Shown here piece by piece: positions 4,311-64,000 of a DNA stretch of 64,000 bases (within the stretch, counting starts at the first letter, position 1; each line of letters starts with the position of its first letter). Both the position numbers and the translations under genes were made by a program. The DNA is from Cylicocyclus nassatus (Eukaryota > Nematoda > Chromadorea > Rhabditida > Strongylidae), in contig CATQJL010000305.1 of assembly GCA_958299035.1 (NCBI GenBank), forward strand, positions 35,663,733 to 35,727,732, given 5' to 3'. The notes under the pieces are model-generated. The model was given only the letters and a program-made list of their open reading frames with translations. It was not told the DNA's origin and did no database searches.

Positions 4311-4312
4311 TA

Positions 4313-4546: not shown

Positions 4547-4553
4547 TACAAGA

Positions 4554-5006: not shown

Positions 5007-5063
5007 CTTCCCTTATTAATGAGGACTGTAAAACTTAAGTGTACAAATTTGAGCAACACAATA

Positions 5064-6610: not shown

Positions 6611-6612
6611 TA

Positions 6613-10400: not shown

Positions 10401-13400
10401 CCAAAGGTGAACAGTGTGTGCAGTGACACACATGATCATATGAAATGAATCGACTGTACGCATGACTATTAAAAAAAACTCCGATGTTCAACATATGGAG
10501 AACTAGCATCGAGACCCATTATTAATGTGAGAAGCTGAACATGTATTACTTTTGACATTACGTAAGGCGCATGAAAAAGAAGTCATGCGCCATATGTTTG
10601 CTCTGTTGTAATTGTAGTAGTGATTAATGGGCGTGAAAATAAGTGTACATCAAGCCCCTGGAGCTCGCTCTCAAGATTATTAAAAAGCATGTGCTATGGA
10701 TGTATGGGCCATCGCCGAAAAGTGGAAGAAGTCACTCGTACAATGGATTAAGTTTTCTTGCTAATATGTGCTACTCCTGTTTCTTCACCTCTCAATAAAA
10801 TCCAATTATTCGGCCTACTTATACGCAACTGTGTTCAAGCAACGGAGAAAACCAAAAAAAATTCTAAGAAAAACAGTAGGTAGGCCCCATGACCGACCCA
10901 ATCCTGGGACATTAGCGAAAATTCTACTCTTATTGAGTCACTTGGATATCATTTCTTTATATAACACTGTGCCATCCGCGCGATTGTTTGGAACAGTTTC
11001 AAATCTCGCAACCAAGCACCCTGTTTAAAAAAACACGATTGTTTTTCACCGCCACAAACAGATGATGACATAAAGATGACACTACTTTGGTAAATGTTCT
11101 CTCGGACCAATTTTTAAAAAATCGCAACTTTTTGCTCAGCTACAATCAACATATCAAAAAGGATATCATTTTTACATTCCTGAAATCAATTGGGAAACAT
11201 CAAGGGACATGCGACTCATTCGTATGTCCGTTTGTTTCGGTAGAACTACGTATTGAAAGTTTCTATGGAAGTTTATCGAGAACTCAGGAACAGGTTATGT
11301 GGATGGGAGATTGTAAGGGCGATTTTACCAACTGCCATTAATGGCAGAAAAGTTCGTTCACCTTCAAAGACAAATTTTGAAATTGCCAGATGAAGTAAGT
11401 ATCTATGTCAAATAGACATCCAATGCTAAATTCTGCATTTCAGTTTGCAATTTGCAATTCCAAACTTAAGGCCTGAAGAGAATATCGATGTAACTAACTA
11501 CTGTCATCTTCAACATATTCTGATCTACTTATCACAATCTGTTGATTGTTGTGCAGTCAAAATTGATACAGCGGCTACAAGACTAAACTTAGATTCACTT
11601 CCTCGTTCCCAAAGGTGCTTTGAAATTATTCAAAAACAACTCTTGCTAGCCATGCATGAAAGTATTGTTCCTCAGCCGATCAGATTTGCAAGCATATTGG
11701 AAGGATACGTATAGTGAGAAATTTTCTCCATTGTAACGGAGCTCAAAAACATCCAAAATAATTACGACATACTTGTGATTTTGCAATTCGCCTCCGTTCA
11801 TGCAGCCGATGATCTTGTCGCAGTTGTCGCCTTCGAAGTACTGAGTGCAAACACAGTGATCCACTTGATTGCGGAATCGTTTGTCTTGTCCTGAACGATT
11901 CATATATTGAAATCCTTTGAGTATAACGCCACACCACGATTAGCTCGTTTTTTATCGAATACCATAGTTTTCACAACTGTCTTGGCTAGATGCCAAACGA
12001 AGACACTATCTATAAGTTCTAGAAAAACGATTTGGCGTATGTTCGAAATCCTATGACAGAACAACCTTCATACCTTCATAAAAGCCAGGTGTTGTTACAC
12101 TCAATTAGGCCCCTGTAAATCTAATTTATTTTTCACAACCGTTTGGAGATCAGTGGAGAAATTTTCTCTCTATGATTTACAAGATGAAGCACCTGACCAA
12201 CAACGACAAGAACAGCCAGAAACAAAGTTTGAATCTCCCGCAAAACAAATTTGGAGTCTGCTCTAATTTTCAAGATTTGGGTTTCATTTGTAGAATTACC
12301 TACAAATTTCCATATAAAAATAGCATTTTGTTTTTAAAGCTTCCAAAGCTCCAGTGACGCCGGAAATTTTCTTCCTGTGTGGCCTGATTTGATCTGCCAC
12401 CAAATCTGTATTACTGTTGTAAGCAAAACTTTCGAAGACTTGGCGAAAATGAGTTGTTCTATTTCTTGCACCGTCCAACAGAATCGCTTCGGCAGCCTTA
12501 TGATTCCCTTTAAAACGAAAAATCTCGCATAATTTTACATAGATTCCTATATGGGTGCTTTTGAAAATTTGAAGCTTTTTCTGATAGTCATCGCATGCTT
12601 GAATTCTAATTCTCCTGCGAACGGAGCATCATACAAAATTTTTCTAGATTCAACTAGCAGCTCAAACTGTAGGAAAAGAATCTTTAGCAGCGCATACAGT
12701 CAAACCCCTCTCAGATGTTAGGAAAACCGCGCATAACATCTTCAATAGCACGACATGTGTATCCCATTCCGTCCGAATGAGCTTTTCATAACAATAACAA
12801 CTCGTACAATCATTCAGCACAACATAATTTGAACAGCACAATGATGTGTTCTCAGTCCTATTTGTTGCCAAAATGGTGGCTATAAAAGCATAATGAATGG
12901 GGAATGTGTACAGCCCAAACATATAAACCAAGTATGAGCTGAATTGATTGCTTGGTAGTCAGTAGTTTGATACACCGGGAGTCTAGAGAGCATTATCCAG
13001 AAAGCCTAAACAAATTTTTTAATAATCAACCCGGGCCCCATGAGATATCATGTTGCTGAATTTTCGCATAAGATGTGGGCTCCAGGTATGGATTCTCGGA
13101 ATTTTCTGTTAAGATGGTAAGTAATTCAACATGGGTAAAAAACGGAGAAGATCATGTAGCAGAATATAATCCTGGCTGCATAGATTTCATGAAAGTTTCA
13201 AAACACGTTCCTTTTAGAAATCACCTACTGATCTTTAAAGGCAGCGTCCAGGCAGATCTGGACCTATGGGGATTTTACGTGGAAAGTACTTTTAAGGCCC
13301 TGACTAAGGCACTGCCCAAGTGGCAGCGCAGGTAGTGCTCTAACGGCTGAGATAATCCCCTCGAAACTGGACCCCGCAATCGTATTCGCATGGATTCATG

Positions 13401-16400
13401 GCAGTTTCGCGCCAGGATCTACGCTTTGCGCCATGAATCCATGCGTGATACGATCGCGGGGTCCAGTTTCGAGGTGATTATCTCAGCCGTTAGAGCACTA
13501 ACTGAGCTGCCGGTTGGGCAGTGGCTTAGTTAGAGCCCCAAAATTACTATCCACGTGGCATCCCCAGTGTTCAGACTTGCCTGGACGCTGCCTTTAACCT
13601 TGGTCGAAAGAACGTGGATACGCAAAAATTAGGAGTCCTGGTCACTACACAGACTCTCTTCAATAGTAGTTTTGAAGGAAGAAGAGTACGTGTGGATAGA
13701 AATGTACAGAAAAAAAATGTAGTTTCTGTCATATAACCTACCGAATTTCGTCTTTCGCCAGCATGCCAACCTTTCACAGTAGCGTCCATCCCAGGGAACC
13801 TTAAAAATGAAAAGATGAAAAAATCTTCATGGCAAACTTATACATATTGGTAAGATTGCTACAAACAGTTTCAAAATACCAAAGAAGCGAGAAAAAATGC
13901 GTCTCATACATTCTCATGAATACACAACTTCAGTGCAGGCTCCACTAAAAGTTCATGGCAACTAAGAAATTATCAAAATGGCAGGCACACTTGAAATATG
14001 AAGATGGAAATCTCAAAGCAAATGAATCATCGAAAAAATGAATTATCAATGGTCCCACCTCACAGATGCATTCAATCTCTTTTCTTCCAACGGCAAGTGT
14101 TCCACCATGCTGGCAAACATTCGCAGTACATCTGCAATATCCAATTTCTGAGCTTTACTTACTGCACAAACCCAAGGCAATTGAAACCAGGTAATTTATA
14201 CGATGATTGAGAACTTACACTTTGCCATGGAGTGCATGTCCTTCGGGACAGCCTTCAAACTCGTTACAAATCGGTCCTTTCCATTTCGGCTCGCAAACGC
14301 ATTTTCCGCCTACCATGTGGGCATGCACTGGAATGGAATTTTTATTGGGGATAGATTTCACTTGATTTGTATTGCACTATAAACAACATCGCCAGTAGGG
14401 ATCACAAAACAACAAAATGCGTACTTTAATTTCCTTAGTCGAACAAAATATGCGAGAATCTTTGCCATATACAGACTGTTTTCGCTAAGGAAGCAAAGTC
14501 TACCAAGTTGATATTAATGTGTTGATGTAGCGACTATTTCTATTTTGACCTACACACAAGTCTTATTTAACCTGAAAATGCTCCAAAAATGTAGCAAAAG
14601 CTGGATCGTCTTAGACTTTGCTTGTCTTGTCAGCTTCATTGAAGCTTTACTTCGGAATTCTGAAGCTAGCTTGACTTCCCGATGTTTGTTACCTTGAGGT
14701 CACAAGAGGGTTTCGTGCCAGCAAAAATCGAATACTTCCGCAGAAGTGGGGAAGGTTGAAAATCCTATACACATCAGACTGAGGAGTGAATCCTGATTAC
14801 AAAGTCTTGCCACATAGTAATTTTTCTTCGGAAGTTACGCCAAGTAGACGATAAAGGCTTTCTCATATCCCCAGATATTTCGCACTAGATCACGTCGGCA
14901 CGAGGTGGCTGGTTGAAAATGCAATAAAAAAAACGAAGTCCCCCTTGATTTCTGCGGATTCTTACGAAGTTCCCTTCGACCCTAGGCCATAATCCCTAAA
15001 AAATCTCCAAATAACGAAACGTTGACTAAAAAAAACGTTGCAAATTTTGGCTTTTCGGCCACAAAAACGAAACTCCCTTTGCTTTTTGTCCAAAACGGTA
15101 TCCAGCTTACTTATAAACCACCTGTGCGAGCCTTGCACTAGATGTTTAGCCCAACAAACTTAATGCCCTTGAAATCGGCATTCTCCGAAAACCACATATT
15201 TTTTGTAAACTAACAGCTATCAAAGCGCTATATTTTTCACCGTAATAATACACTGATGAAGACTGATTGGTAATGTTTTCATACTGTAAGTTAAAGCTAG
15301 CCCTATAGTCTGCTAAAGCTATTCGGACAATTATATAACACTGCTTACATGATTTTTTAGAGACGCCATATGTTATCTATTGGTGGCGGAACAGCGCAAA
15401 TCTCCCTTGAGAATGGTGACAATCGAAGAAATTTTCCACAGCTATTCGACTTCCGAAATTTGAGACTTCAGCTTCTTTCCCGTGGAAAGAAGCAAGCCAC
15501 GAAAGCGACATTTCGGCACGGGAAGATCAGCGTTGCCCGATTTGAAAACTAATTAGAACAGGAGCAGAATTTTTACAAGAATAGTATAATGTCTGTCGAG
15601 TTCCAAGGATTCTCTCCCTTATTTGAGCCTCCGTCGTACACAAAGATGTCTTATCCTACTGCTATCTGGGGATTGCATGAAAAGCAAACATACCACATGC
15701 GATATTACACCGGTGAACGAATAAAAAACTGTGGACTGCTCAAATTTCGTCTGATTCTCCAACCTCGTCATAAGCGCATTGTATGAGTTCGCAGAAATTC
15801 AACGAAGCTTCAAGACATATAAAAAGTCACCATTAAACAAATGGCGTCAGATGACGTCAGATGGAGTCATTCGAATATTTACTCACTTAGAATATTTGCT
15901 CACTTATCAAGTGACTCGAAAAACCAAGGTTATGAAAATTTAGACTGGATAGCGATGGCATCAAGACCTTTGTCAAGAAATTCGGTCTCGTTCATTTGCA
16001 GATTGTCGTTGGTCACAGTTATTGAAAAATTTGATCAGTTTATGCTGTCCCAGTAGTTGATATGAATTTTACGAGCCGCAGATGAAGCATAAGGAGTACT
16101 TTTTTCGCTTTTTTTATAACGGAAAATGACGAACCTACATGAAATAAACCACTTTCTTGCAACAAAAAGATTTGCATGGTAATTTTTGGAAAAAAAGAGA
16201 GGCACCCCTTAACGGTACTACAGATTAATGGGATTCAATACCCTTCTTCTTCCTTAACATCAAAACCAACAGAACATGTTATCGACGGTAAAACACATGA
16301 TATTTGCTTTTTTTCCTAATGGGTGTAGACGTGCTAATTTTGACCGAAAACTTTCTTTTAGAAAGACTATAATCCGAAATGATTTTGAAAAAATGATGAT

Positions 16401-24079: not shown

Positions 24080-24139
24080 CTAATATTCTTCAGTACTGCT
24101 GTGCCAGACAGGTTTGGTAGGTGTTCTTTATTCCAATCA

Positions 24140-24180
24140 AGGCCTAACGTTTCGACGCCTTTCGTCTTCCTCAGAGGCCT
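24140..24180 (-). ncRNA. Hammerhead-ribozyme-like motif, unit 1
   Basis: On the minus strand, AGGCCT - CTGAGGA - A - GACG/CGTC stem - GAAA - CGTT - AGGCCT. The two palindromic AGGCCT blocks can form a 6 bp stem I, GACG/CGTC forms stem II, and CTGANGA and GAAA match the conserved core. Stem III is reduced to almost nothing, and one extra A follows the CTGANGA box. Hammerheads with minimal stem III are known from Penelope-like element pseudo-LTRs. Activity is untested. Confidence 0.6.
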
Positions 24181-24396
24181 GAAAATGGCTCAAAGCGTCA
24201 TCTGTGAAAAGAGGCCATCAAGCACCATCCTCATTCCTGCTAGTTCTCGATCTTCGCTCAACATCCCTACCGCAAAAATTGTCAGCGCCAGAAAATGAAC
24301 ATACCGTTGAGAACACCGCTATGTCAGTTTCCGCACCGGAAGTGATGGTCTTGGCGGAAGGACTAAACTATACTATAAATGCACATAGCATGTGAT

Positions 24397-27060
24397 CTAT
24401 AGATTGCATATCGATAAGAATGGAAGGAAGTCGTTGGTAACTGACAAACATTCATTCTTATTGTTCATTGCTGGATTCTTTGAAGAGATCCAGAATGCTT
24501 CCAGCGCCTTCCTAGCCGAGGTTTCCTTCTCATAGGTTAAGATTTCGCACTTTATATCGAAATCGGCTCCACCATGCGCTTCGTTCCTATGCCTGCCCAA
24601 CGGTGATAACAGGGTTTTACGCCTTTTATCTGCCAGATGTTCGTTTATGCGAGTACTAAGTGATCTTCCAGTTTCGCCAATATAGAGAGCATTGCAGCTA
24701 GGGCATTTCAATTGATAAACCACTCCCGCTTGTGCACAGTCACCTATTCTACCGTACGGACAGACTACGCATCTTTCTGTTATACAGTATCGATCGTAAA
24801 GTCTGTTTCGAACTAACTGCTTTTTGATATTGTCGTTTGGGATGTTCACTAAGACAACATCGTCTTGCAGTTGTGCGCGTATAATGCACTTTCGAAAAGC
24901 CGCACTGATGTTATCGGAAATAAATGGCAGGCACAGTGGGAGCTTATTATCACGAATGCGGTCACCATTTGCGTGATGTTGGATACGCGGTAGACAGTGG
25001 TAACCATTGCTGCAAGCAATCTGAGAGGCTAAACTTCGTGACTCGCATCGTTCTCTTTCTCCGGAGCACATCTGCATAGCTGTTTTGAACATATTCCCGA
25101 TCACTGCTCGTTTCGTAGATGCAGGATGCGCCGATCTTACATTGATAAGGATGTTCTTTGAGCTTTCCTTGCGGTACCACTTCATGCTAACAATGCCATT
25201 GGACAATTTGACCTGTGCGTTGAGGTAGGGGAGCCATCCGTCGTGCGGTATCTCTCGTGTAAGCTTTATGTACTGCGACTGCTGGTTGAGAATTTCGAAA
25301 CACTTGTCCATTTCGGACTGAGTGGACGTAAATATGCAGCAGTCATCGATGTAACGGCAGTACATCAGCGGCATGCGGGCTAGCACCGGTTCCTCGATTT
25401 TACTCATAAAGCAAATGGCGAGGACAGGGGCTAGCCTCTGACCCATAGCCAATCCGCGTATCTGGGAGTAGTACGTCCCAGACCATCTGAAGATGTTACA
25501 TTTCAAGCATTCGCTCACTAGGGTCATCGTCCGCCTTTTGCCAAGCCCAAAAGTATTGATGGTAGTGGCATATTTATCCAACATCTCTGAGAGCGCTTGC
25601 AAAGCTTGGTTGTTCTGCACATTAGTGTAGAGCGAAGTCACATCGAATGACTCGACTACAGTGCTCGAATCAAACTTGGCGCTTCGAAGCTTTTCTATAA
25701 AATCACGCGAGCTGGATAAATGTGCTGGTACTTTGGGTAGCAGTTGGCTCACAATTTTGTTCAAGAACCACGAAATTCGATCGGTGGGACCGCCTACGCA
25801 ACTAATAATCGGTCTAATTTTGTAAGTGTCCGCTGACATTGAACTCATGTCCCGCAAGGAAAGCTTGTGCGTCTTAACAAGGCTATAAAACACTGGACAG
25901 CTTGGAGACCTGAGTTTCAACCTGCTTATAAACCTGTCGTCGAGTCCCGCAGATTTAGCTATCGTGGTCCAAGCGTCATTCAACTTTCTATACTGTGATT
26001 GAAATTCTTTCGCAGAGACGACTCTATACGTGGTGGTGTCCGCCAGATGAGCTGCTGTTATTCGTCGATCCAACTCTTGAGGAATTACTACGAATTCGCC
26101 GCCTTTATCGCTTACAGACAATCGCACCGAACCGTTAGATACGAGTTCACGTATCTCTTTGAAACCCTGCCACTGTCTAGGTGTCAAGTTAGTCTGATGT
26201 TGATGTTTCGCTCTATTTAGAACTTCGAGAACACCAGAACATAAGAGACGGAACTTGATGTCTACCTCAGGGACGGGAGCAGGTTGTCTGTAAAACGACT
26301 GCGGGAAAGGAATTGAGGGTAGTAAGCTGTTGGCATCGCGAGCTGTTGCTGTTGGACCATCTTTGCATTTGCTGCGTAGTCTGAGAGTGTCTCTGAGTTT
26401 GTGCAGGCTTCCTACTATTTTGCGACAAGTCGCGGAGTTGACATTCTGCGCAGGAGAGAAGGAAGGGCCAAGGCTAAGAAGCTCGATGACATTGGAAGAT
26501 AATGGAATGTTCCCAATCACCGTGACCCTCGATGTAACTTCATTCTGATATGCATGTCCTTGAAAGCGGTGGTCGGTAATGTTATTTCTGTTACATGAAC
26601 AATTTTTGCAGAGATCAGTCAAGAGTCGATCGTACTTTGCACGGAGTTTGATTTTGATCCTAGATCGAATCGAATCACAGATTAGCTTTGAACCATCCTC
26701 AATCCTCCTCCAACGTTCACAAGGCAAGAGACGTTTACAAGCTTGTTCTTTTGCATAACATTTCAACAAGGTAGAATACAACAGTCTCCGTTTTTCTTTT
26801 ATGATAACATTCAAGATAGCTTGATAAATCTTCACTATCCTCGGATCATCTTCATCGAGAGCGCAAGTGTATCCTAGTCTCTTATCCTTGATGAAAGTGG
26901 GCAACACGTTCGTTCTCTTGCAACGTCGGAGGAATATCAAGGATTGGCGAAGAGCTATCGCTTTTTGTCGAAGCGACAGCGTTTCACGTGTCAAGCGGAA
27001 CATTGTCGGCGGTAAGTCTTCTAATAGTTTAAAAGTTCCACTTTCCTTAAACCTCGGCAT
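24397..27060 (-). CDS. Penelope-like RT/GIY-YIG polyprotein, unit 1
   Basis: An intact ORF of about 887 codons. In order (numbering the full 888-codon ORF): a basic N-terminal region, the DKG motif typical of Penelope-like elements (SVSDKGGEFVVIP, about 317-328), RT motif A (ESFDVTSLYTN, 471-481), motif B (RGLAMGQRLAPVLA, 537-550), and the catalytic YIDD (571-574). A Cys-containing linker (CVVC, 765-768) precedes a C-terminal GIY-YIG endonuclease with GVVY (780-783), YIGETGR (794-800), R806, H809 and an acidic partner near E855. The product would nick the target and reverse-transcribe the element RNA by target-primed synthesis in the nucleus. I take ATG at 27058-27060 as the start; the GTG before it sits on the unit junction. 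No frameshift or stop is present, so it could be active. Confidence 0.92.
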   Translation of the reverse strand: MPRFKESGTFKLLEDLPPTMFRLTRETLSLRQKAIALRQSLIFLRRCKRTNVLPTFIKDKRLGYTCALDEDDPRIVKIYQAILNVIIKEKRRLLYSTLLKCYAKEQACKRLLPCERWRRIEDGSKLICDSIRSRIKIKLRAKYDRLLTDLCKNCSCNRNNITDHRFQGHAYQNEVTSRVTVIGNIPLSSNVIELLSLGPSFSPAQNVNSATCRKIVGSLHKLRDTLRLRSKCKDGPTATARDANSLLPSIPFPQSFYRQPAPVPEVDIKFRLLCSGVLEVLNRAKHQHQTNLTPRQWQGFKEIRELVSNGSVRLSVSDKGGEFVVIPQELDRRITAAHLADTTTYRVVSAKEFQSQYRKLNDAWTTIAKSAGLDDRFISRLKLRSPSCPVFYSLVKTHKLSLRDMSSMSADTYKIRPIISCVGGPTDRISWFLNKIVSQLLPKVPAHLSSSRDFIEKLRSAKFDSSTVVESFDVTSLYTNVQNNQALQALSEMLDKYATTINTFGLGKRRTMTLVSECLKCNIFRWSGTYYSQIRGLAMGQRLAPVLAICFMSKIEEPVLARMPLMYCRYIDDCCIFTSTQSEMDKCFEILNQQSQYIKLTREIPHDGWLPYLNAQVKLSNGIVSMKWYRKESSKNILINVRSAHPASTKRAVIGNMFKTAMQMCSGERERCESRSLASQIACSNGYHCLPRIQHHANGDRIRDNKLPLCLPFISDNISAAFRKCIIRAQLQDDVVLVNIPNDNIKKQLVRNRLYDRYCITERCVVCPYGRIGDCAQAGVVYQLKCPSCNALYIGETGRSLSTRINEHLADKRRKTLLSPLGRHRNEAHGGADFDIKCEILTYEKETSARKALEAFWISSKNPAMNNKNECLSVTNDFLPFLSICNL

Positions 27061-27122
27061 CACTAATATTCTTCAGTACTGCTGTGCCAGACAGGTTTGG
27101 TAGGTGTTCTTTATTCCAATCA

Positions 27123-27163
27123 AGGCCTAACGTTTCGACGCCTTTCGTCTTCCTCAGAGGCCT
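27123..27163 (-). ncRNA. Hammerhead-ribozyme-like motif, unit 2
   Basis: Identical in sequence and position to the unit 1 motif, 2983 bp downstream. Cleavage at both copies would release unit-length RNA. Confidence 0.6.
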
Positions 27164-27379
27164 GAAAATGGCTCAAAGCGTCATCTGTGAAAAGAGGCCA
27201 TCAAGCACCATCCTCATTCCTGCTAGTTCTCGATCTTCGCTCAACATCCCTACCGCAAAAATTGTCAGCGCCAGAAAATGAACATACCGTTGAGAACACC
27301 GCTATGTCAGTTTCCGCACCGGAAGTGATGGTCTTGGCGGAAGGACTAAACTATACTATAAATGCACATAGCATGTGAT

Positions 27380-30043
27380 CTATAGATTGCATATCGATAA
27401 GAATGGAAGGAAGTCGTTGGTAACTGACAAACATTCATTCTTATTGTTCATTGCTGGATTCTTTGAAGAGATCCAGAATGCTTCCAGCGCCTTCCTAGCC
27501 GAGGTTTCCTTCTCATAGGTTAAGATTTCGCACTTTATATCGAAATCGGCTCCACCATGCGCTTCGTTCCTATGCCTGCCCAACGGTGATAACAGGGTTT
27601 TACGCCTTTTATCTGCCAGATGTTCGTTTATGCGAGTACTAAGTGATCTTCCAGTTTCGCCAATATAGAGAGCATTGCAGCTAAGGCATTTCAATTGATA
27701 AACCACTCCCGCTTGTGCACAGTCACCTATTCTACCGTACGGACAGACTACGCATCTTTCTGTTATACAGTATCGATCGTAAAGTCTGTTTCGAACTAAC
27801 TGCTTTTTGATATTGTCGTTTGGGATGTTCACTAAGACAACATCGTCTTGCAGTTGTGCGCGTATAATGCACTTTCGAAAAGCCGCACTGATGTTATCGG
27901 AAATAAATGGCAGGCACAGTGGGAGCTTATTATCACGAATGCGGTCACCATTTGCGTGATGTTGGATACGCGGTAGACAGTGGTAACCATTGCTGCAAGC
28001 AATCTGAGAGGCTAAACTTCGTGACTCGCATCGTTCTCTTTCTCCGGAGCACATCTGCATAGCTGTTTTGAACATATTCCCGATCACTGCTCGTTTCGTA
28101 GATGCAGGATGCGCCGATCTTACATTGATAAGGATGTTCTTTGAGCTTTCCTTGCGGTACCACTTCATGCTAACAATGCCATTGGACAATTTGACCTGTG
28201 CGTTGAGGTAGGGGAGCCATCCGTCGTGCGGTATCTCTCGTGTAAGCTTTATGTACTGCGACTGCTGGTTGAGAATTTCGAAACACTTGTCCATTTCGGA
28301 CTGAGTGGACGTAAATATGCAGCAGTCATCGATGTAACGGCAGTACATCAGCGGCATGCGGGCTAGCACCGGTTCCTCGATTTTACTCATAAAGCAAATG
28401 GCGAGGACAGGGGCTAGCCTCTGACCCATAGCCAATCCGCGTATCTGGGAGTAGTACGTCCCAGACCATCTGAAGATGTTACATTTCAAGCATTCGCTCA
28501 CTAGGGTCATCGTCCGCCTTTTGCCAAGCCCAAAAGTATTGATGGTAGTGGCATATTTATCCAACATCTCTGAGAGCGCTTGCAAAGCTTGGTTGTTCTG
28601 CACATTAGTGTAGAGCGAAGTCACATCGAATGACTCGACTACAGTGCTCGAATCAAACTTGGCGCTTCGAAGCTTTTCTATAAAATCACGCGAGCTGGAT
28701 AAATGTGCTGGTACTTTGGGTAGCAGTTGGCTCACAATTTTGTTCAAGAACCACGAAATTCGATCGGTGGGACCGCCTACGCAACTAATAATCGGTCTAA
28801 TTTTGTAAGTGTCCGCTGACATTGAACTCATGTCCCGCAAGGAAAGCTTGTGCGTCTTAACAAGGCTATAAAACACTGGACAGCTTGGAGACCTGAGTTT
28901 CAACCTGCTTATAAACCTGTCGTCGAGTCCCGCAGATTTAGCTATCGTGGTCCAAGCGTCATTCAACTTTCTATACTGTGATTGAAATTCTTTCGCAGAG
29001 ACGACTCTATACGTGGTGGTGTCCGCCAGATGAGCTGCTGTTATTCGTCGATCCAACTCTTGAGGAATTACTACGAATTCGCCGCCTTTATCGCTTACAG
29101 ACAATCGCACCGAACCGTTAGATACGAGTTCACGTATCTCTTTGAAACCCTGCCACTGTCTAGGTGTCAAGTTAGTCTGATGTTGATGTTTCGCTCTATT
29201 TAGAACTTCGAGAACACCAGAACATAAGAGACGGAACTTGATGTCTACCTCAGGGACGGGAGCAGGTTGTCTGTAAAACGACTGCGGGAAAGGAATTGAG
29301 GGTAGTAAGCTGTTGGCATCGCGAGCTGTTGCTGTTGGACCATCTTTGCATTTGCTGCGTAGTCTGAGAGTGTCTCTGAGTTTGTGCAGGCTTCCTACTA
29401 TTTTGCGACAAGTCGCGGAGTTGACATTCTGCGCAGGAGAGAAGGAAGGGCCAAGGCTAAGAAGCTCGATGACATTGGAAGATAATGGAATGTTCCCAAT
29501 CACCGTGACCCTCGATGTAACTTCATTCTGATATGCATGTCCTTGAAAGCGGTGGTCGGTAATGTTATTTCTGTTACATGAACAATTTTTGCAGAGATCA
29601 GTCAAGAGTCGATCGTACTTTGCACGGAGTTTGATTTTGATCCTAGATCGAATCGAATCACAGATTAGCTTTGAACCATCCTCAATCCTCCTCCAACGTT
29701 CACAAGGCAAGAGACGTTTACAAGCTTGTTCTTTTGCATAACATTTCAACAAGGTAGAATACAACAGTCTCCGTTTTTCTTTTATGATAACATTCAAGAT
29801 AGCTTGATAAATCTTCACTATCCTCGGATCATCTTCATCGAGAGCGCAAGTGTATCCTAGTCTCTTATCCTTGATGAAAGTGGGCAACACGTTCGTTCTC
29901 TTGCAACGTCGGAGGAATATCAAGGATTGGCGAAGAGCTATCGCTTTTTGTCGAAGCGACAGCGTTTCACGTGTCAAGCGGAACATTGTCGGCGGTAAGT
30001 CTTCTAATAGTTTAAAAGTTCCACTTTCCTTAAACCTCGGCAT
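27380..30043 (-). CDS. Penelope-like RT/GIY-YIG polyprotein, unit 2
   Basis: The second intact copy, with the same start, length and catalytic residues (DKG, FDVTSLYTN, YIDD, YIGETGR, H809). The only amino-acid difference I can see from unit 1 is Leu instead of Pro at residue 788, between the two Cys of the CxxC in the GIY-YIG entry (base 27684 is A where unit 1 at 24701 has G). Proline or leucine at this spot should not remove catalytic residues. Its pseudo-LTR context lies at 30046-30672, so in the usual model this would be the copy transcribed with an upstream promoter. Confidence 0.92.
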   Translation of the reverse strand: MPRFKESGTFKLLEDLPPTMFRLTRETLSLRQKAIALRQSLIFLRRCKRTNVLPTFIKDKRLGYTCALDEDDPRIVKIYQAILNVIIKEKRRLLYSTLLKCYAKEQACKRLLPCERWRRIEDGSKLICDSIRSRIKIKLRAKYDRLLTDLCKNCSCNRNNITDHRFQGHAYQNEVTSRVTVIGNIPLSSNVIELLSLGPSFSPAQNVNSATCRKIVGSLHKLRDTLRLRSKCKDGPTATARDANSLLPSIPFPQSFYRQPAPVPEVDIKFRLLCSGVLEVLNRAKHQHQTNLTPRQWQGFKEIRELVSNGSVRLSVSDKGGEFVVIPQELDRRITAAHLADTTTYRVVSAKEFQSQYRKLNDAWTTIAKSAGLDDRFISRLKLRSPSCPVFYSLVKTHKLSLRDMSSMSADTYKIRPIISCVGGPTDRISWFLNKIVSQLLPKVPAHLSSSRDFIEKLRSAKFDSSTVVESFDVTSLYTNVQNNQALQALSEMLDKYATTINTFGLGKRRTMTLVSECLKCNIFRWSGTYYSQIRGLAMGQRLAPVLAICFMSKIEEPVLARMPLMYCRYIDDCCIFTSTQSEMDKCFEILNQQSQYIKLTREIPHDGWLPYLNAQVKLSNGIVSMKWYRKESSKNILINVRSAHPASTKRAVIGNMFKTAMQMCSGERERCESRSLASQIACSNGYHCLPRIQHHANGDRIRDNKLPLCLPFISDNISAAFRKCIIRAQLQDDVVLVNIPNDNIKKQLVRNRLYDRYCITERCVVCPYGRIGDCAQAGVVYQLKCLSCNALYIGETGRSLSTRINEHLADKRRKTLLSPLGRHRNEAHGGADFDIKCEILTYEKETSARKALEAFWISSKNPAMNNKNECLSVTNDFLPFLSICNL

Positions 30044-30105
30044 CACTAATATTCTTCAGTACTGCTGTGCCAGACAGGTTTGGTAGGTGTTCTTTATTCC
30101 AATCA

Positions 30106-30146
30106 AGGCCTAACGTTTCGACGCCTTTCGTCTTCCTCAGAGGCCT
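30106..30146 (-). ncRNA. Hammerhead-ribozyme-like motif, unit 3
   Basis: Identical copy in the truncated unit, so three motifs lie at constant spacing. This one would lie near the 5' end of a transcript across the array. Confidence 0.6.
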
Positions 30147-30362
30147 GAAAATGGCTCAAAGCGTCATCTGTGAAAAGAGGCCATCAAGCACCATCCTCAT
30201 TCCTGCTAGTTCTCGATCTTCGCTCAACATCCCTACCGCAAAAATTGTCAGCGCCAGAAAATGAACATACCGTTGAGAACACCGCTATGTCAGTTTCCGC
30301 ACCGGAAGTGATGGTCTTGGCGGAAGGACTAAACTATACTATAAATGCACATAGCATGTGAT

Positions 30363-30672
30363 CTATAGATTGCATATCGATAAGAATGGAAGGAAGTCGT
30401 TGGTAACTGACAAACATTCATTCTTATTGTTCATTGCTGGATTCTTTGAAGAGATCCAGAATGCTTCCAGCGCCTTCCTAGCCGAGGTTTCCTTCTCATA
30501 GGTTAAGATTTCGCACTTTATATCGAAATCGGCTCCACCATGCGCTTCGTTCCTATGCCTGCCCAACGGTGATAACAGGGTTTTACGCCTTTTATCTGCC
30601 AGATGTTCGTTTATGCGAGTACTAAGTGATCTTCCAGTTTCGCCAATATAGAGAGCATTGCAGCTAAGGCAT
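30363..30672 (-). pseudogene. 5'-truncated C-terminal fragment of the same ORF (unit 3)
   Basis: Only the last hundred or so codons of the GIY-YIG domain remain, starting abruptly at 30672 within the CxxC region. The truncation joins a long T tract in the flank. It carries the same A as unit 2 at the Pro/Leu site (30667). In the family this partial copy is a structural part of the inserted element, not an independent dead gene. Confidence 0.85.
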
Positions 30673-33504
30673 AGGAAGTTTTTTTTTTTTTTTTTTCAAG
30701 CACAGTTTTTTTTCTTTTTGGATTTTCGGACATCTCGCGCTACATGAAAATGTTTAACTGTCTCAAAATGAGTGATTTTCAAAAATTCAAAGAGAAAGTA
30801 TGATAATCCAAAGTATTAAATGGATTGACAAATTGAACGAAATTATAGGATTATGATGGAAAACACCTAACTAAAATTACTTGAAAGAAGAGATTACCAT
30901 GCAGAAAGGCAGACAAGATACTATTGGTCTCACACAATGATGGAGATACATCGAAAACTTCCGTTAAGTTCTAGAGTCAACAATCCTAGCTATGTTGCAG
31001 AAGAGCACAATTTCTCGCAACACGCCTTTGCAAGCCGAATTCCCTCAGCCTGTTCTGTAATTAGATTTGCTTTTGACATCACGACCATTCAATTTCATTT
31101 CTATATGACGAGACAAGGAATGAGAGGGTAACCGAAAGCGAAGGAATTGCAAGAGCTTTAAGCGGATGAATGTAGAGGAAAAATGTTATAACGTTAACGC
31201 TCAAGTGAGAAAGAAGGATCGATTCAGACATTTTCAGCGAAGCTCAAATTGAGGGCTATCTATTCACTTACTTCTTTTTCGCTTTGGCAATAAAGGAATG
31301 TTGGGAAGGAACGATGCCTAGAACATATCCAGAGTTCCATAAATACTGAATGGCTTCAAATATTGGCCGAAAGGACCTCACATAAAACGAAAGATGAGTC
31401 AGACCATCTTGACAGCTTCGTGCAAACTATGCTAGCCATAACTTTTCATAGAGAAGTCCAAACAGCGCCAGGCACATTTGCAAAGAGTAGGTCATAAAAC
31501 CTTTGTACAGGGCTCGGCAGAGGTGGCTTGGTGAGCAAGCCGGATATCGTTTTTGGGACAAAAAGCAAAGGGGGTTTCGTTTCTGTGGTCGAAAAGATAC
31601 AAAATTTGCGACGTTTTTCTTGGTCGACGTTTCGCTTTTGGAGATTTTTCAGGATTATGGCTTGGGGTCAAATAGGACTTCGTAAAATTTCGGGAAGATC
31701 AAGGATACTTCGTCTTTTGCATTTTTCAAAAGCCACCTCGTGCCGAGCTCTGCATATGTACTGCAATTTTGGATTTTTCTGCAACGTCTTGAATTTGAGG
31801 GCCTAACTCAATATGATCAATGCTTGAGTGATATTCTTCATTCAATTTTATCTTTGCAGCTAATATTTGGGAGATAGCTAAGACAAATCCAAAAATAGAA
31901 GGATTATTCTTTCTGATTAAACTACAGCAAAGCAAATCTGTCCAGAGAGCGAAAAGCTACGATTTTTCGAAAATGAAACGACAGAGAATTCTAACCGACC
32001 TAATATTTCTTTTCATGACAAAACAAAATGAAAACAGAAAAGTTCTGCAAAACTGCACCTCCATCTCAACCAGCTCCTTCCCCCCCCCCCCTCCCGTGTT
32101 TTGTTGCAAGCGATAAGTTGCGAAGAGGATAAAAACTGTGAAATATGAACAAGCGGACAGTGGAAAACAACATGTGTTCGACATTTGCTTGAATGTGTTC
32201 TATGTCAAAGCATTATCTGCAACGAAAAAAATCTTGGTACAGCGAAACAAATCATAATCGCACAGTAAACAACGAATGTTTTAGAGAAGAGCAAATCTGA
32301 GGAAAATGTGACATGGGAATAACGAAAATGCACATGAATAAATGAATAACTATTGACGTATTCACTGCGATGAAACAGTCGGAATCTTACAACTTTTATT
32401 CAAGGCAATTTTTCTGACAATCTAGCGATTCAGAAAATGTCTCAAAATTTTTGGTGTATTTTTACATTTATGGTGTATTTTTACGCTGTATTCCTCGCGA
32501 AAAAGCGGTCCATAACTTATCGAGCAGTTTAAATTTGGAAATATAGTACGCGGAAATTTCTGAAAGATTTATTGCAAAATTTGCGATGAAGATTTTTTAT
32601 AGTCCAGCAAAAGGAATGATGAGAAAGTCATGAACTAGATACGTCCTATGGATCATTTTTTATTTATGACAATTAGCCGACAACTGGCTGCTAGCGAGTG
32701 TGCCAACTGGCTGAAAATGTGACCTGAGCTGGCACAGGCTTTGCCAGAAGCCTGAAGAAAGAAAAAACGGGCATAGCCGTGCTCCAGAGACGCTCAAAAA
32801 CACCGTTATGATATCATAACGAAGTCCACAGAGGAAACGAAGTGGACGAAGTCGTCAAACTCGAGAAATGCCTTTTCCGCCGAATAACGACCTCAAAAAC
32901 GATGACATGTTTGGGGAAATGCTAAGGTCTATGAACGAGTTCTCAAAAGATTATTTTCAAAGAAGACTAGTTTCTAGTACACCATATTCTCCCCTTAGAA
33001 CTTGGTCAGTATGTAAATATAAATTTCTCAGCCTTCGACGAAAGTTGCCATCTATTCAACGTGCTGACTTTTTTCCGATTCATTATTTGAAACTTATGTT
33101 TCAAAAGTAACTTCCTGAAATGAGTATAACGAACAGCAAAGAAAAATGAGTAGTGGAAAGATTCAAGCATTTTTGTTGAAGGATTTGCAACTTTTTTAAT
33201 GAGTACTCTGCCGCAGCGGCCGGTTTATAGCGTATCAATGCTATCCGAGACAAGCGGGAAAGGGGTGGGAAGAACTAAAATATAGAAAAGAATAATAGTT
33301 ATGTAAATAAAATCAAAATATAGTCATATTTGATATGACGACTACGTGTTGTCCAGTTCGTTATGAAAATTTTAGCTTTTCTTCTATTCTTATTTTGCCT
33401 ATAATGTGTGTCAACCACGTGCCCCTTTTCCGCAGCAACTACGCATCCGCAGCGCGTGGGTATGCGTGGCGATCTTCGATCAATGCGGCAAATTTGAATG
33501 CTTA
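30673..33504. other. Gene-poor stretch right of the retroelement array
   Basis: Begins with a long T tract. It then runs AT-rich with no recognised exon. A C tract followed by TCCCGTGTT near 32078-32100 matches the junction near 2210-2228. The ORFs at 31503-31806 overlap in two frames and look like chance. Confidence 0.4.
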
Positions 33505-47309: not shown

Positions 47310-49745
47310 ACAGCAATAAGTCACACATTTCTCAGTTCTGATTGAGGTGCAGGGTACCGTTCCATAGAGCAAAGAAAGCTCCATAGGATGACATGTAAGT
47401 GCTCGAACCAGATTCAGCACATCACGAGTTAGAAGCCGAAAGCTGAGAACTTCTGAATGCCCAGAAGATTGAAAATTCTCTATAAATATGTCCAAAAAAC
47501 TTACCACGTCCCAGACTCGCTCACGCATATACATTCCACACAACACATTCATATGTGCCCTTGCTGTATTTGTTTCTGTGCTAGAAACCGAGAAAACCAA
47601 GGTTTTCAAGCTTCGAAAAAAGCTAGGCTGCGCTGTTTTTAAGCAGGTTTATGTATACCAGAGGCCTTCAGTAATACATCGATAGATTTGCAGCTTTCCG
47701 AAAGCGTTAATTCTTAAGAAACGAATCTAGCTTTTTTGCCAAGGTAATTTATGTTGAAACTAACATTTCTCGGGAACTAGAGCTTATAGAAAGCTGGAAA
47801 TCTATGACTGTACTTCTAAAGACCTGTAGTATACATTTACGTTTGTGAAAACAGCGCAGCATCGCTTTTTTGGAGGCTTGATAATTTTTATTTTCTCGGT
47901 TTCTAGCACAGAAACAACACAGTGACAGCACATACAGTGCTGGCCATAATTATATAGCCACCCTAGAAATCGTCGTAATTTTCGTTCTTGTCAATGAATC
48001 TGTCTGAAACTTTGCTGTATTGTGCGCATGTCAGTCTTCCATGACTCCTCAAAACGGCTTCCAGTCTTGTTGAGTTTGAACGGAGAAAAACGTAAAAATT
48101 CGAAAAAGCCTCTTTGAAAGCTGGACAAAATTATATAGCCACCTGGTTTTTCTAATCACTATCGCATTCGTTGACTCTCAAATATTTGTGTACAATAATA
48201 CCCCAAAATATGAAACATTTGCAACACCTACGGCCTCTCATCCTACTCAAGTAGAAGCGATCACTGCATTTTTTGCTTTCAAAAGCACCAAAAATCAGTT
48301 TGCTTCAACAAACAACTGGTTTGAAGAGTTTTCAAGCTCTTGTTCATTTCAAATGATAATCATGGAATCTACTGACCGTTCTGGATAGATGAGGTAAAGA
48401 GCGCTTTCGTAAACTCTGCAATCGCTGATTTTGACGGACAGACTCCGACCTCACCATAGGGTTGAGGCACTTTTGCACCACAAACTTCGATTTCCAAGCA
48501 ACAGAAAATACTGCAATGTAGCCATCACGAAAGCCATACAACAGCAAACTCGTGTGCGTGACTGGGAAAAAATTTCGGGATTGAGCACTCTGGTTCAGCC
48601 GCAGTTGACATCCACTAAATGTTGAGTAGAGCACCCTGTACAATCAAAGCCAACTCAGATCACGAGCTAAAATAGGAGACGCTCAAAACTTCAAAATCTT
48701 AGCTAATCTCATTCATCGGATGAAATATGACGTGAAATACAGAGGGAAATAAGGAGATCTAGGGTTGTATCGAATCTTCTGCTCGCAGGGAAATTTCGCG
48801 GAAAGTATCTCAGGTTTAAATCGCTACCGCATCATTAGGGAAAATCTGAAAGTTGTTGCGAAAGCTGCATCCTCATGTAGGCAATGTAGTAAATCAAGTT
48901 CAGCACTTTGTGGACATTGCAAACTGAGTTTTATGATTTAAAAGCGTTTCAGCCCTATGGTGAGGTCGGAGTCTGTCCGTCAAAATCAGCGATTACGCAG
49001 AGTTTACGAAAGCGCTCTTCACCTCATCTATCCAGAACGGTCAGTAGATTAGATTCCATGATTATCATTTGAAATGAACAAGAACTTGAAAACTCTTCAA
49101 ACCTGTTGTTTGTTGGAGCAAACTGATTTTTGGTGCTTTGAAAGCAAAAAATGCAGTGATCGCTTCTACTTGAGTAGGATGAGAGGCCGTAGGTGTTGCA
49201 AATGTTTCATATTTTGGGATGTAATTGTACAAAAAAATTTGAGAGTCAACGAATGCGATAGTGATTAGAAAAACCAGGTGGCTTTATAATTTTGTTCAGC
49301 TTTCAAAGAGGGCTTTTTCGAATTTTTACGTTTTTCTCCGTTCAAACTCAACAAGACTGGAAGCCGTTTTGAGGAGTCATGGTAGGCTGACATGCGCACA
49401 ATACAGCAAAGTTTCAGACAGATTCATTGACAAGAACGAAAATTACGACGATTTCTAGGGTGGCTATATAATTATGGCCAGCACTGTATGAATGTGTTGT
49501 ATGGGTGTATATGCGTGAGCGAGTTTGGAATTTGGTAAGTTTTCTAAGGAAAAAGTTATAGAGAATTTTCTGTTTTGGGGCATCCGAAAAATCTGTTTGG
49601 CTTCTAACTCGTGATGTGCTGAAGCTGGTATAAACGCCTACACGCCATCCTGTAGAGCTTGCTTTGCTCTATGGAAAGGTATTCTGCATCCCAATCATAA
49701 TTGAGAAGTGTGTGACTTATGGCGGTAAAAAGCCAAAATTGGAAA
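47310..49745. repeat. Older palindrome interrupted by a Tc1-type foldback
   Basis: Sequence 47310-47560 is roughly the inverse of 49490-49740. Landmarks are CACACATTTCTCA, TCCATAGAGCAAAG, CACATCACGAGTTAGAAGCC and CTCGCTCACGCATATACA, which recur inverted right of the inserted element. A further inverse pair lies inside the left side (TTTCTGTGCTAGAAACCGAG near 47570 against 47895-47915). The younger TA-flanked element therefore landed inside a pre-existing inverted-repeat element. Confidence 0.65.
47935..49486. mobile_element. Tc1/mariner-type foldback element, copy B
   Basis: A 1552 bp element flanked by TA (47933-47934 and 49487-49488). The ends start CAGTGCTGGCCATAATTATA. It is the same family and layout as 5064-6610: long inverted arms, a loop of about 460 bp and no transposase. 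It differs from copy A by scattered substitutions and small indels, so the ORF seen in copy A arms is broken. Confidence 0.8.
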
Positions 49746-51760: not shown

Positions 51761-52334
51761 CTCAGATAATCGCCGGGAGCAGGCGGTCCGCAAACTCGCG
51801 CTTTCCTCCTGGCGGTCAGCAGAATTTTGGGGAGTGACCTTGAGCGGGCGGCACTTCCTTTACTGTCGAATGTCCTGCTAGCAGGGCAGAATACAGAGTT
51901 TTTTGCGGGCACTCGTCAAATAATCTCTTTCAGCGAGCGCTGGCCAAACTTTCAGCAGGCACTCGGACTCTTTTTAAGCAGTTTTGGTCGTACGTCGAGC
52001 AAATGTGAGACTCTATGCTGCAGAGGTGCATCGATGGTTTGATTACTCAAGTTTGAGGTTTCCCAGCGGAAAGTACCTGACGGCTGTGCGGTCCTCCACA
52101 AAGGACCGCGCGGCCCTCAATAATTTTGCATATTCTCGCGGACAGTCCGCGAGAATGCGGCTACTGCTCCGCTGCTAATAAGGAAACCGCGATTGTTTTC
52201 CAAGCATTTGTCTAAAATTTCGCTAAAATTCTGCCAAATTTCTGCAAGCGGGCCGCAAGAAATCAGCGAACTATTTTCCCGGTGCCCGCTTGCTCAAAAT
52301 TCGCATGGCCGCCTGCCCCCTGCGATTATCTGAG
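51761..52334 (+). mobile_element. TIR element carrying an SL RNA-like gene, copy 1
   Basis: A 574 bp element whose left end CTCAGATAATCGCCGGGAGC is inverse to its right end (reading inward from the right: CTCAGATAATCGCAGGGGGC). The terminal repeats extend through AGGCGG, about 26 bp. The centre carries an SL RNA-like gene. Left of it is a block with ACTCTTTTTAAGCAGTTTTGG that is conserved upstream of copy 2 as well, possibly promoter. No protein coding capacity. This would be a non-autonomous DNA transposon with an RNA-gene cargo. Confidence 0.7.
52036..52158 (+). ncRNA. SL RNA-like gene, copy 1
   Basis: A 22 nt leader at 52036-52057, beginning GGTTTGATTACTCAAG and ending TTTGAG, differs from nematode SL1 at positions 6 (A to G) and 12 (C to T). 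The donor GT follows at once (52058). Then come GGCTGTGCGGTCC pairing with GGACCGCGCGGCC around TCCACAAA, an Sm-like site AATTTTG (52122-52128), and a perfect 10 bp terminal hairpin (TTCTCGCGGA, loop CAG). This leader, donor, stem, Sm site, stem order is that of SL RNAs used in trans-splicing. The first post-donor stem is weaker than in copy 2. Function not shown; it could be a transposed pseudogene. Confidence 0.7.
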
Positions 52335-52475
52335 ATAGAGTGTCACATTTGCTCAACATACGCCTGAAACTGCTTGAAAAAAGTCCGAGCGCCTGCTGAA
52401 AGTTTGGCCAGCGCTCGCTGAAAGAGATTATCTGACGAGCGCCCGCAGAAAACTCTGTATTCTGCCCCGCTAGCA
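52335..52475 (-). repeat. Orphan copy of the SL element's upstream block
   Basis: The minus-strand sequence matches 51885-52020 of copy 1 almost base for base (GGCAGAATACAGAGTTTT, CTCGTCAGATAATCTCTTTC, ACTCTTTTTTCAAGCAG). It stops where the SL leader should begin. It is thus a promoter-side fragment without its RNA gene. Confidence 0.65.
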
Positions 52476-53050
52476 CTCAGATAACCGCCGGGGGCAGGCG
52501 GCCATGCGAATTTTGAGCAAGCGCGCACCGGAAAAATAGTTCGTTGATTTTTTGCGGCCCGCTTGCAGAAGTTTGGAAGAAAGTTGGCAAAATTAAAGAC
52601 GAATGCTTGAAGAACAATCGCGGTTTCTTTATGGATTAGCTGCGGCGCAGTGGCCGCATTCTCGCGGACTTTCCGCGAGAATATGCAAAAATTTCGAGGG
52701 CCGCACGTTCCTTTGTGGAGGACCGCGCAACCCCCAGGTACTTTCCGCTGAGAGAAAGTACCTCAAACTTGAGTAATTAAACCAACGGTGACACCTCTGC
52801 CACACAGAGTCTTACCTGCGCTCGAACGCCCGAAAATACCTAAAAAGAGTCCGAGCGCTTGCTGAAAGTTTGGCCAGCGCTCGCTGGAAGATATTATTTG
52901 ACGAGCGCTCGCAGAAAATTCTGTATTGCTGCCCGCTGGCAGAACGCGGAAGTACCGCCCGCTGAAGGTTTGGCCACGCCCCAAAATTCTGCTGACCGCC
53001 TGCAGAAAAGCGCGAGTTTGCGGACCGCCTGCCCCCGGCGATTATCTGAG
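52476..53050 (-). mobile_element. TIR element carrying an SL RNA-like gene, copy 2
   Basis: 575 bp, the mirror orientation of copy 1, with CTCAGATAACCGCCGGGGGC at 52476 and the inverse CGGCGATTATCTGAG ending at 53050. All parts of copy 1 are present in reverse order. Equal length and conserved ends show that the SL gene and the TIRs move or duplicate as one unit. Confidence 0.7.
52657..52783 (-). ncRNA. SL RNA-like gene, copy 2 (closest to canonical SL1)
   Basis: The leader at 52762-52783 begins GGTTTAATTACTCAAG and ends TTTGAG. It differs from nematode SL1 only at position 12 (C to T). The donor begins GTACTTTC, and GGTACTTTC pairs with GGAAAGTACC, putting the donor in a stem as in known SL RNAs. 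Stem II (GGTTGCGCGGTCC with GGAACGTGCGGCC) has one mismatch. The Sm site reads AATTTTTG (52686-52693), a full consensus. The terminal hairpin TTCTCGCGGA/TCCGCGAGAA is perfect. This is the copy most likely to be functional. Confidence 0.75.
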
Positions 53051-53502
53051 CAGGACATTCGACAGTAAAGGAGGTACCGCCCGCTGAAGGTTTGGCCATA
53101 CCCCAAAATTCTGCTGACCGCCTGCAAGAAAACGCGAGCTTGCGGACCGCCTGCCGCTCGCGATTATCTGAGATGCTGCAGAGGTGTCATCGATGGTTTG
53201 ATTACTTAAGTTTGAGGTACTTTATCTTAGCGGAAAGTACCTGAGGGCTGTGCGGTCCTCCACAAAGGACCACGCAGCCCTCAATAATTTAGCATATTCT
53301 CGCGGACAATCCGCGAGAATGCGGCCAATGCGCCGCAACTAATCTATAGGAAAACCGCGATAGTTCTCCGAGCAATTGTCTGAAAATTGGCCAACATTCT
53401 TCCAAATTTTTCCAAGCGGGCCGCAAGAAATCAGCGAACTATTTTTCAGGTGCCCGCTTGCTCAAATTTCGCATGGCCGCCTACCTCCGGCGATTATCTG
53501 AG
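53051..53502 (+). mobile_element. Rearranged SL-bearing element, copy 3
   Basis: Starts with an inverted copy of the left-terminal block (53051-53170, ending GCGATTATCTGAG). It then runs directly into the SL RNA-like gene and the normal right part, ending CGATTATCTGAG at 53502. The upstream promoter-like block of copies 1 and 2 is missing, so this copy looks recombined. Confidence 0.65.
53194..53322 (+). ncRNA. SL RNA-like gene, copy 3 (likely decayed)
   Basis: The leader at 53194-53215 begins GGTTTGATTACTTAAG, with three differences from SL1 (positions 6, 12, 13). The donor is GTACTTTA. Stem II keeps GGGCTGTGCGGTCC / GGACCACGCAGCCC with one mismatch. The Sm-like site has become AATTTAG (53285-53291), which should not bind Sm well. 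The terminal hairpin is intact. The upstream block is lost. Confidence 0.65.
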
Positions 53503-61012: not shown

Positions 61013-61669
61013 AAAACTCCAGGTAAGCGCAAATTTGACTAGGTTGAGATTTGCCGAGCCACTGCCTTTACCAGGTTCAACCAAGAATTTGTTTCCCTAA
61101 GTAGCGACGTAGATTCAATCTGTTTTTTAGTCAATAGTGGCCCCATTTTTGATTAAGCAGTATCAAAAATGATCACTGTTATCATAATAACGTCATCTGT
61201 TATTAACAGATTGGACTTGCCCAGAATAGAGATAGGTAGAGTCCCATCATCTTACGCACGAAACAAGCAGTGGCGAGGAACTTCAAGCCATCATTTAGTA
61301 TAGTCTCATCTGGCTAAGTTTCGCAAGGCGAAAAGTTTGAAGAGAAAGACGATACTGAATCATTGCTGAAAACGATTAAGATGTTCTAATATAAGTTCTG
61401 GATTGTTTTGCTCTTACAGAAAACTATTAAACAATCAAACAGCTTCTAGGTGATCACAAATGCTCTTCTACCTTACCGGAAATGATTTCGAAAAATACAT
61501 GTCAAAATGGACCAAAACGTGTCAATATTTTTCTGCACGTGACAGAGAGGCAGTCCTCATGAAATCTATAAAAAATTGTTCTTAGACTAAAGAACGTCTT
61601 TTATGAGAGTTCTTTGAAAAAATGGGTCCGGGTAACGGAAAAATACCAAAAATTCTGCCACTACAACTA

Positions 61670-61910
61670 CAGTCGGTTTCATCCCGGATTAGGCGGAACA
61701 TCCCACAAGGAGAGGCGCGTACGCACCGCCGGAAGTCTCGCGAGCGCATAGCGCTGGCATTTTGCCTGTGCAGAGACTGAGGAGAAGGAAGAGACGCAGA
61801 CCTCGGTTCTCAGCACGATATGATGTACTGTAGCTGCGAAACGGCGCGAGCTGTTGCGAGGCGGACGCCCGCCAATCCAATTTCCGCCTAATGCGAATCG
61901 AAACTTACTG
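61670..61910 (-). mobile_element. TA-flanked MITE, same family as 4071-4546
   Basis: 241 bp flanked by TA (61668-61669 and 61911-61912). It begins CAGTCGGTTTCATCCCGG and ends in the inverse of CAGTAAGTTTCGATTCGC. The internal landmarks of the 4.1 kb copies occur in reverse (CTCGCGAGCGCATAGCGCTG, GCGCGAGCTGTTGCGAGGCG). Confidence 0.75.
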
Positions 61911-62240
61911 TATACGGTAAAACAGAAGTGAAGTACGCACATGGTCCAGATTAACTTTTTTTTTTCAAATTTCGTTGTTCACTCCTTCCTTCAAAACCGA
62001 AATTAGCATAAGAAGTTCAACATAGAGATGTGCAAATAAACCTTTGAGACATCAACGATTTCGAAACAATATCGTTTTCCGCACTTTTCGCCAAGTGCAG
62101 CCGACTTTATCACAAAGATCAATTCTTTCCTATAGTATACAAGAATCTGAACTAAGATACATATAAGATATGGAGTAAACAGCAGCTTGAAATCTTCCTT
62201 GTTTCAGTGTTTATTGAACCAATTGGGGAAGGCAGCTTAC

Positions 62241-63865: not shown

Positions 63866-64000
63866 CTTAGGTAATCGCCGGGGGCGGGCGGTCAGCAAAC
63901 TCGCGCTTTTTCTGCAGGCGGTCAGCAGAATTTTGGGGCGTGGCCAAACCTTCAGCAGGCGGCACTTCCTTTACGGCCGCATATTTTTCCAGCGGGCAGC
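63866..64000 (+). mobile_element. Partial SL-bearing TIR element at window edge
   Basis: Begins AGGTAATCGCCGGGGGCGGG and follows the left part of copy 1 (GGTCAGCAAACTCGCGCTTT, GGCGGTCAGCAGAATTTTGG, GGCGGCACTTCCTTTAC) until the window ends. By analogy with copy 1, an SL RNA-like gene is expected about 275 bp from its left end, beyond the window. Confidence 0.6.

Follow-up and report, generated by a model that had tools for sequence, protein, structure and literature searches.

How SL genes multiply, leave 5S arrays, and diversify in nematodes is an open question. The SL1 genes of C. elegans are arranged together with 5S rRNA in a monomorphic tandem array (PMC1657053). The same source describes SL1 as largely invariant across the phylum, with SL1-like variants reported in several species. 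The window analysed here, the whole 64,000-nucleotide stretch from contig CATQJL010000305.1 of the strongylid Cylicocyclus nassatus, contains three sequences resembling SL1 RNA genes in elements bounded by terminal inverted repeats (TIRs). The locus raises the question of whether a spliced-leader (SL) RNA gene can be the cargo of a DNA transposon.

Leaders were located by comparing SL1 with each 22-base stretch of the window, on either strand, counting substitutions only. The canonical strongylid leader is printed for Haemonchus contortus (PMC7652881). Only three sites lay within 6 mismatches of SL1, with 1, 2, and 3 mismatches, and the next best site had 7. All three leaders are directly followed by GT and have T at position 12, where SL1 has C. 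Because it is common to all three copies, this variant is probably ancestral to the element family.

The first-pass annotation had placed the three genes at the same position inside three TIR elements, two of which were 574 and 575 bp long and in opposite orientation. The latter two, A and B, were recovered as described (Table 1). The third, X (whose gene is referred to as copy C), proved to be more complex: its gene does not lie in an element whose two ends are both in position, as the left half is inverted relative to the right half and split by B. Three simple side-by-side elements were rejected on the grounds that copy C has no left end in place. When its pieces were rejoined, X was a full element of 593 bases. 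The common position of the gene thus held for A, B, and rejoined X: the leader starts at base 276 of A, 268 of B, and 286 of X, and the cassette occupies the same central place in the three copies readable to that point. X shares 89% identity with A and 85% with B; between A and B, the identity is 87%. Over 26 bp, the left and right ends of an element match each other with 2 mismatches in A, 1 in B, and 4 in rejoined X. The element ends read CTCAGATAATCGC.

Table 1. Positions of the elements, leaders, and SL RNA-like cassettes, numbered from the first nucleotide of the window.
Feature	Position	Strand	Remarks
Element A	51761-52334	+	Intact, 574 bp, TIR to TIR; inserted in X, 2-bp duplication AT
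Leader of A	52036-52057	+	2 mismatches to SL1
SL RNA-like cassette of A	52036-52159	+	GT at 52058, Sm-like ATTTTG at 52123, terminal hairpin at ~52130-52156
Rest of left half of X	52335-52475	-	Parted from 53051-53172 by the insertion of B
Element B	52476-53050	-	Intact, 575 bp; inserted in left half of X, 2-bp duplication CA
SL RNA-like cassette of B	52655-52783	-	GTAC donor, Sm-like ATTTTTG; least damaged of the three
Leader of B	52762-52783	-	1 mismatch to SL1
Left end of X	53051-53172	-	~122 bp with TIR; inverted relative to right half
Right half of X	53173-53502	+	Third element of the first-pass annotation; right TIR at 53477-53502
Leader of X (copy C)	53195-53216	+	3 mismatches to SL1
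SL RNA-like cassette of X (copy C)	53195-53323	+	GT, broken Sm-like site ATTTA, stems largely intact
Fourth copy	63866-64000	+	Left end only; the window stops short of where the SL cassette would lie

Target duplications and empty sites, for which the first-pass annotation had proposed a search, were indeed found within the window. B interrupts X between CTAGCA and CAGGAC, with a duplication of CA, and the corresponding empty site, CTAGCAGGAC, is present in A. Similarly, A interrupts X between CTCTAT and ATGCTG, with a duplication of AT, and the empty site, CTCTATGCTG, occurs in A's own sequence. In alignments with both A and B, X has two extra bases at each insertion place. Thus, each insertion duplicated 2 bp. 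The outer flanks of X, CA and TA, show no matching duplication, such that 2 of the 3 testable insertions show one.

The nesting suggests an order of events at this locus. X would have inserted first, followed by A and B into X. The segment 51761-53172 would then have been flipped after both insertions, most simply via recombination of A's outer end with X's inverted end. It is also possible that the present order of 51761-53502 reflects a misassembly.

Further copies of the element were found outside this cluster. Near the end of the window, the fourth copy is 87% identical to the consensus over 131 bases (63866-63996) and has a different flank. A protein search using the left-half frame of B returned a single protein, P0083, from a 720-base ENA contig, with 90% identity over 66% of the query. 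By eye, the first part of P0083 is unlike the element. The likeness begins at the TIR, where ...T-QIIAGGRR corresponds to the left end of the element in another frame, and the protein ends in ...GVTVGLITQV-stop, exactly as the frame of B does. SL1 itself reads GLITQV-stop in that frame. Based on its own flank up to the TIR and the ending that it shares with B, P0083, which is known as a protein alone, represents a further copy of the element in another flank, and it is compatible with a leader in the corresponding position. Its source may be the same species or a near one. The dispersed copies with unlike flanks are the one at 63866 and P0083; the copies are few and their flanks were compared by eye. 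The original proposal that the SL RNA-like gene is carried as transposon cargo is supported, within the window and one protein, by nested insertions with 2-bp duplications, the empty sites in A, and the outside copy P0083.

Other searches for relatives gave no matches of note. A protein search using the right-half frame of B yielded 20 candidates, none with an E-value of 10 or better. Searching a viral contig collection with P0083 gave 7 pattern matches and no relative. The leader-plus-GT pattern had no matches in viral, bacterial, and archaeal sequence, nor did the TIR pattern in viral sequence, little being expected in such collections. In both intact copies, an open frame spans the left half of the element, encoding 90 aa in A (51770-52042) and 92 aa in B (52763-53041), and both frames stop at a TGA inside the leader. 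In addition, a frame of 124 aa (52812-53186) extends into B from the left end of X. The left-half open frames are probably a by-product of the GC-rich sequence.

With respect to class, the elements have ~26-bp TIRs, two 2-bp target duplications, nested insertions, and the cassette in all 3 readable copies. We consider it likely that they constitute a family of ~575-bp non-autonomous DNA transposons (MITE-class) whose ancestor captured an SL1-type RNA gene. The elements have no room for a transposase of their own: they are 574 to 593 bp long, and the stop-to-stop frames that touch them are 90 to 139 aa. No transposase was found in a Pfam scan of 10 of the 87 listed frames of the window, all 10 being frames other than those touching the elements. 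The elements would be moved by a transposase encoded elsewhere in the genome. Tc1/mariner elements target TA. As the duplications read here are CA and AT, not TA, they argue against assignment to this superfamily. Separately, the left half of the element (consensus 19-206; roughly 51779-51960 in A) contains five copies of GC(A/G)GGCG, counted on the consensus + strand, and two of the motif GGCCAAAC(C/T)TTCAGC. These repeats are possible subterminal transposase sites.

The cassettes have a common organization. The leader is followed by a hairpin and then by a long stem rich in GC; an Sm-like stretch, which is unpaired, separates this stem from a terminal hairpin. In B and C, the donor lies within the first hairpin; in A, a deletion has removed 5 bases from the 5' arm of that hairpin. 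The long stem has one mismatch in B. The Sm-like motif reads ATTTTG in A and ATTTTTG in B, but in C it is broken (ATTTA). Thus, the initial description of three SL RNA-like genes stands for the SL1-like leader, GT, GC-rich stem, and terminal hairpin, which were found in all three, while the Sm-type site is broken in one. The motif starts 65 to 70 nt past the leader. By default, SLIDR expects SL genes to have AT{4,6}G at 20 to 60 nt from the donor (PMC7986045); the cassettes have their motif farther away, and have it in two of three copies.

The predicted folds are consistent with this organization. Using the structure taken from B, every cell of the terminal hairpin is paired in all three copies, and the stems on both sides of the Sm site are present, with 112 of 115 cells paired. 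Folding of the RNA, another check suggested by the first-pass annotation, gave z-scores of -6.4 for A, -6.9 for B, and -8.6 for C, with none of 200 shuffles as stable in each case. The majority consensus of the three copies folded at -68.3 kcal/mol with an unbroken long stem. When the consensus was scanned in 9 windows along the element, using a custom shuffler and 60 shuffles per window, the z-score of the cassette window was -9.6 and those of the other 8 ranged from -3.6 to +0.9. An Sm-like motif with a perfect hairpin of at least 9 bp starting no more than 12 nt downstream occurs at 4 places on the two strands of the 64-kb window, 3 of which are these genes; this criterion was fixed after the copies were seen, and the motif was relaxed in order to include C. 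In the predicted folds of B and C, most of the leader is unpaired, whereas it pairs with the donor region in the Rfam SL1 structure.

Comparison with Rfam placed limits on the likeness to SL1. No Rfam family reached its gathering score anywhere in the window, 5S rRNA and SL1 included, and a 5S-SL1 array was rejected on this basis. In a permissive search, SL1 matched B with 18.0 bits (E = 3.5) and C with 16.8 bits (E = 6.4), as compared to a cut-off of 75; A was absent among the matches listed. The SL1 model aligned end to end with B and C in a collinear layout. Three unrelated Rfam families scored 18.2 to 19.6 bits in the same stretch. Because the SL1 scores are far under the cut-off and unrelated families score as high, the Rfam result is by itself no support beyond the collinear layout. 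The alignment revealed little likeness besides the leader, the Sm-like stretch, and the existence of the terminal hairpin. The cassettes are SL1-like by leader and architecture, and are not members of Rfam SL1 by score.

We evaluated whether the cassettes might still function. Read from the sequence, it is rather unlikely that some copies are live SL genes that would be transcribed and supply mRNAs with the variant leader GGTTTRATTACTCAAGTTTGAG, the transposon thereby spreading working trans-splicing donors. B does retain a leader with 1 mismatch, the donor, the Sm-like site, and three stems, and the T at position 12, being common to the three copies, is probably an ancestral variant. Moreover, degenerate SL1 leaders have been reported in H. 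contortus transcripts (PMC7652881), and a one-base variant of SL1 is in use in Meloidogyne javanica (PMC1657053). However, conservation of the cassette does not exceed that of the remaining element: 19 of 121 columns are variable within the cassette versus 87 of 439 outside (Fisher p = 0.36; three copies, with 34 gapped columns of 594 left out). For the leader alone, the value was 2 of 22 (p = 0.40; three copies). Selection on the cassette was thus tested and not supported. Two of the three copies have lesions, namely the 5-base deletion in the first hairpin of A and the loss of the Sm-like site in C, and B has its mismatch in the long stem. Changes on both sides occurred in none of 40 base pairs, although shuffles gave the same values and three sequences are uninformative in this respect. 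Finally, none of five leader variants was found in the literature search.

The SL exon of Ascaris acts as an internal promoter. A family that carries a working SL1-type RNA gene would perhaps drive its own transcription, and its transposition would seed and diversify trans-splice donors across a strongylid genome; for the elements described here, we consider this doubtful. If this were the case, SL genes would be freed from the 5S array and the leader repertoire would be partly encoded by transposons.

It is improbable that the elements captured only the 22-base leader, as a retrocopy from a trans-spliced mRNA, and that the hairpins are ordinary palindromes of the element. In flatworms, 597 discarded partial-leader loci lie in mobile elements and possibly derive from trans-spliced retrotransposon transcripts (PMC12582326), and the intron part of the cassettes is hardly like Rfam SL1 in sequence. 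Nevertheless, the leader in the present elements is complete and immediately followed by GT in all three copies, the downstream pair of Sm-like motif and hairpin occurs at one other place in the window only (by a criterion set afterwards), and, along the element, the fold minimum coincides with the cassette. A leader from a retrocopied mRNA was rejected, as the GT, Sm-like site, and hairpins come after the leader. An ordinary dispersed cluster of SL RNA genes, with duplications that contain inverted repeats by chance and with no transposition involved, would fit the proximity of the three genes and the fact that SL1 genes are not always in 5S arrays, the two being unclustered in Oscheius tipulae (PMC8022731), but is very improbable given the exact TIR borders, the nested insertions with target duplications and empty sites, provided that the assembly is correct there, the copies with other flanks (63866 and P0083), and a window without any Rfam family at gathering score, 5S rRNA included.

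Returning to the capture of an SL1-type RNA gene by a MITE-class transposon, the history of the family may be outlined as follows. An ancestral element would have taken up an SL1-type spliced-leader RNA gene that produced a transcribed SL RNA with well-paired stems. The present copies would be decaying to SL pseudogenes, B the least; at best, a variant SL1 RNA could still come from some of them, for example from B.

The window contains other repeats. A Penelope-like retroelement occupies 24080-30695, with head-to-tail units spaced 2983 bp apart. Two of its frames, 24397-27072 and 27380-30055, encode 891 aa each and look nearly identical, and a third, 30363-30695, is cut short; the units are either a tandem array or an assembly repeat. 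The first of these frames contains RVT_1 and GIY-YIG domains (Pfam). Of 7994 candidates scored for this frame, 82 proteins were listed; the highest scores among these belonged to Ancylostoma ceylanicum (69% identity over 91%) and H. contortus (59% over 100%), with Necator and Nippostrongylus lower, which points to a strongylid-like nematode as the source of the window. Two fold-back elements of ~1.55 kb, 5061-6614 and 47931-49490, have long complementary arms (79-99% by piece) and are 88-93% alike in the pieces listed. The frame at 6171-6566, from the first of these, had no Pfam match. A 300-bp palindrome at 13267-13566 has 119-nt arms that are 87% complementary. By eye, its inner part resembles a tRNA D-arm in reverse complement; ARAGORN found no tRNA. 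The CTGAGATAATC palindrome at 13347-13486 was inspected by eye and judged unrelated. Finally, a unit of ~238 bp is tandemly duplicated at 4069-4550 and has inverted relatives (83-86%) at 61668-61912, near the other end of the window.

A DNA transposon containing an SL RNA gene would be a concrete vehicle for the dispersal of such genes and a source of variant leaders. It also calls for caution in the annotation of SL genes, as a simple filter for a leader plus GT could accept such copies even where they are pseudogenes. In line with the first-pass annotation, which knew of no description of such cargo, the literature search yielded no recognised description of an SL RNA gene carried by a TIR DNA transposon; most subscription papers lay outside the search, and this is weak evidence of absence.

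Mobile elements have been tied to SL genes in other ways. SLACS and CRE are retrotransposons that target SL genes. In nematodes, NeSL is likewise tied to SL genes (PMC4640811), but elements of this type integrate into spliced-leader exons by reverse transcription, whereas here an SL-like gene lies inside a DNA transposon. A NeSL-type retrotransposon was rejected because ~575 bp leaves no room for a reverse transcriptase and neither A nor B is inserted in an SL exon. The Dada elements are DNA transposons linked to small RNA genes, as are those described here. However, the targets of Dada are U6, U1, and tRNA genes, where its insertion produces duplications of 6 to 7 bp (PMC3706591), whereas the RNA gene is cargo in the present elements and the duplications are 2 bp; membership in Dada was rejected based on the latter difference. 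In flatworms, SL leader sequence is also found inside repetitive mobile elements (PMC12582326), but as partial leaders only, as compared to the whole SL RNA-like gene observed here. In that survey, nearness to mobile elements counted against a candidate during filtering, and a rescue step followed. In a hypothesis paper that deals with retrotransposed RNAs, SL RNAs were suggested to have perhaps retained the ability to transpose (PMC4233971).

The cassettes and the elements each have a closest known counterpart. Nematode SL1 RNA genes (Rfam RF00198; C. elegans sls-1) likewise have a 22-nt leader, a GT donor, and a terminal hairpin, and their Sm-type site between stems has a counterpart in two of the three copies. 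The cassettes described here differ from them in lying within TIR elements, in having a longer and largely unlike intron part, and in their variant leader. MITEs and other non-autonomous TIR DNA transposons are likewise short, with TIRs, target duplications, no room for a transposase, and nested copies. What sets the present elements apart from these is their internal cargo, an RNA gene of the splicing machinery.
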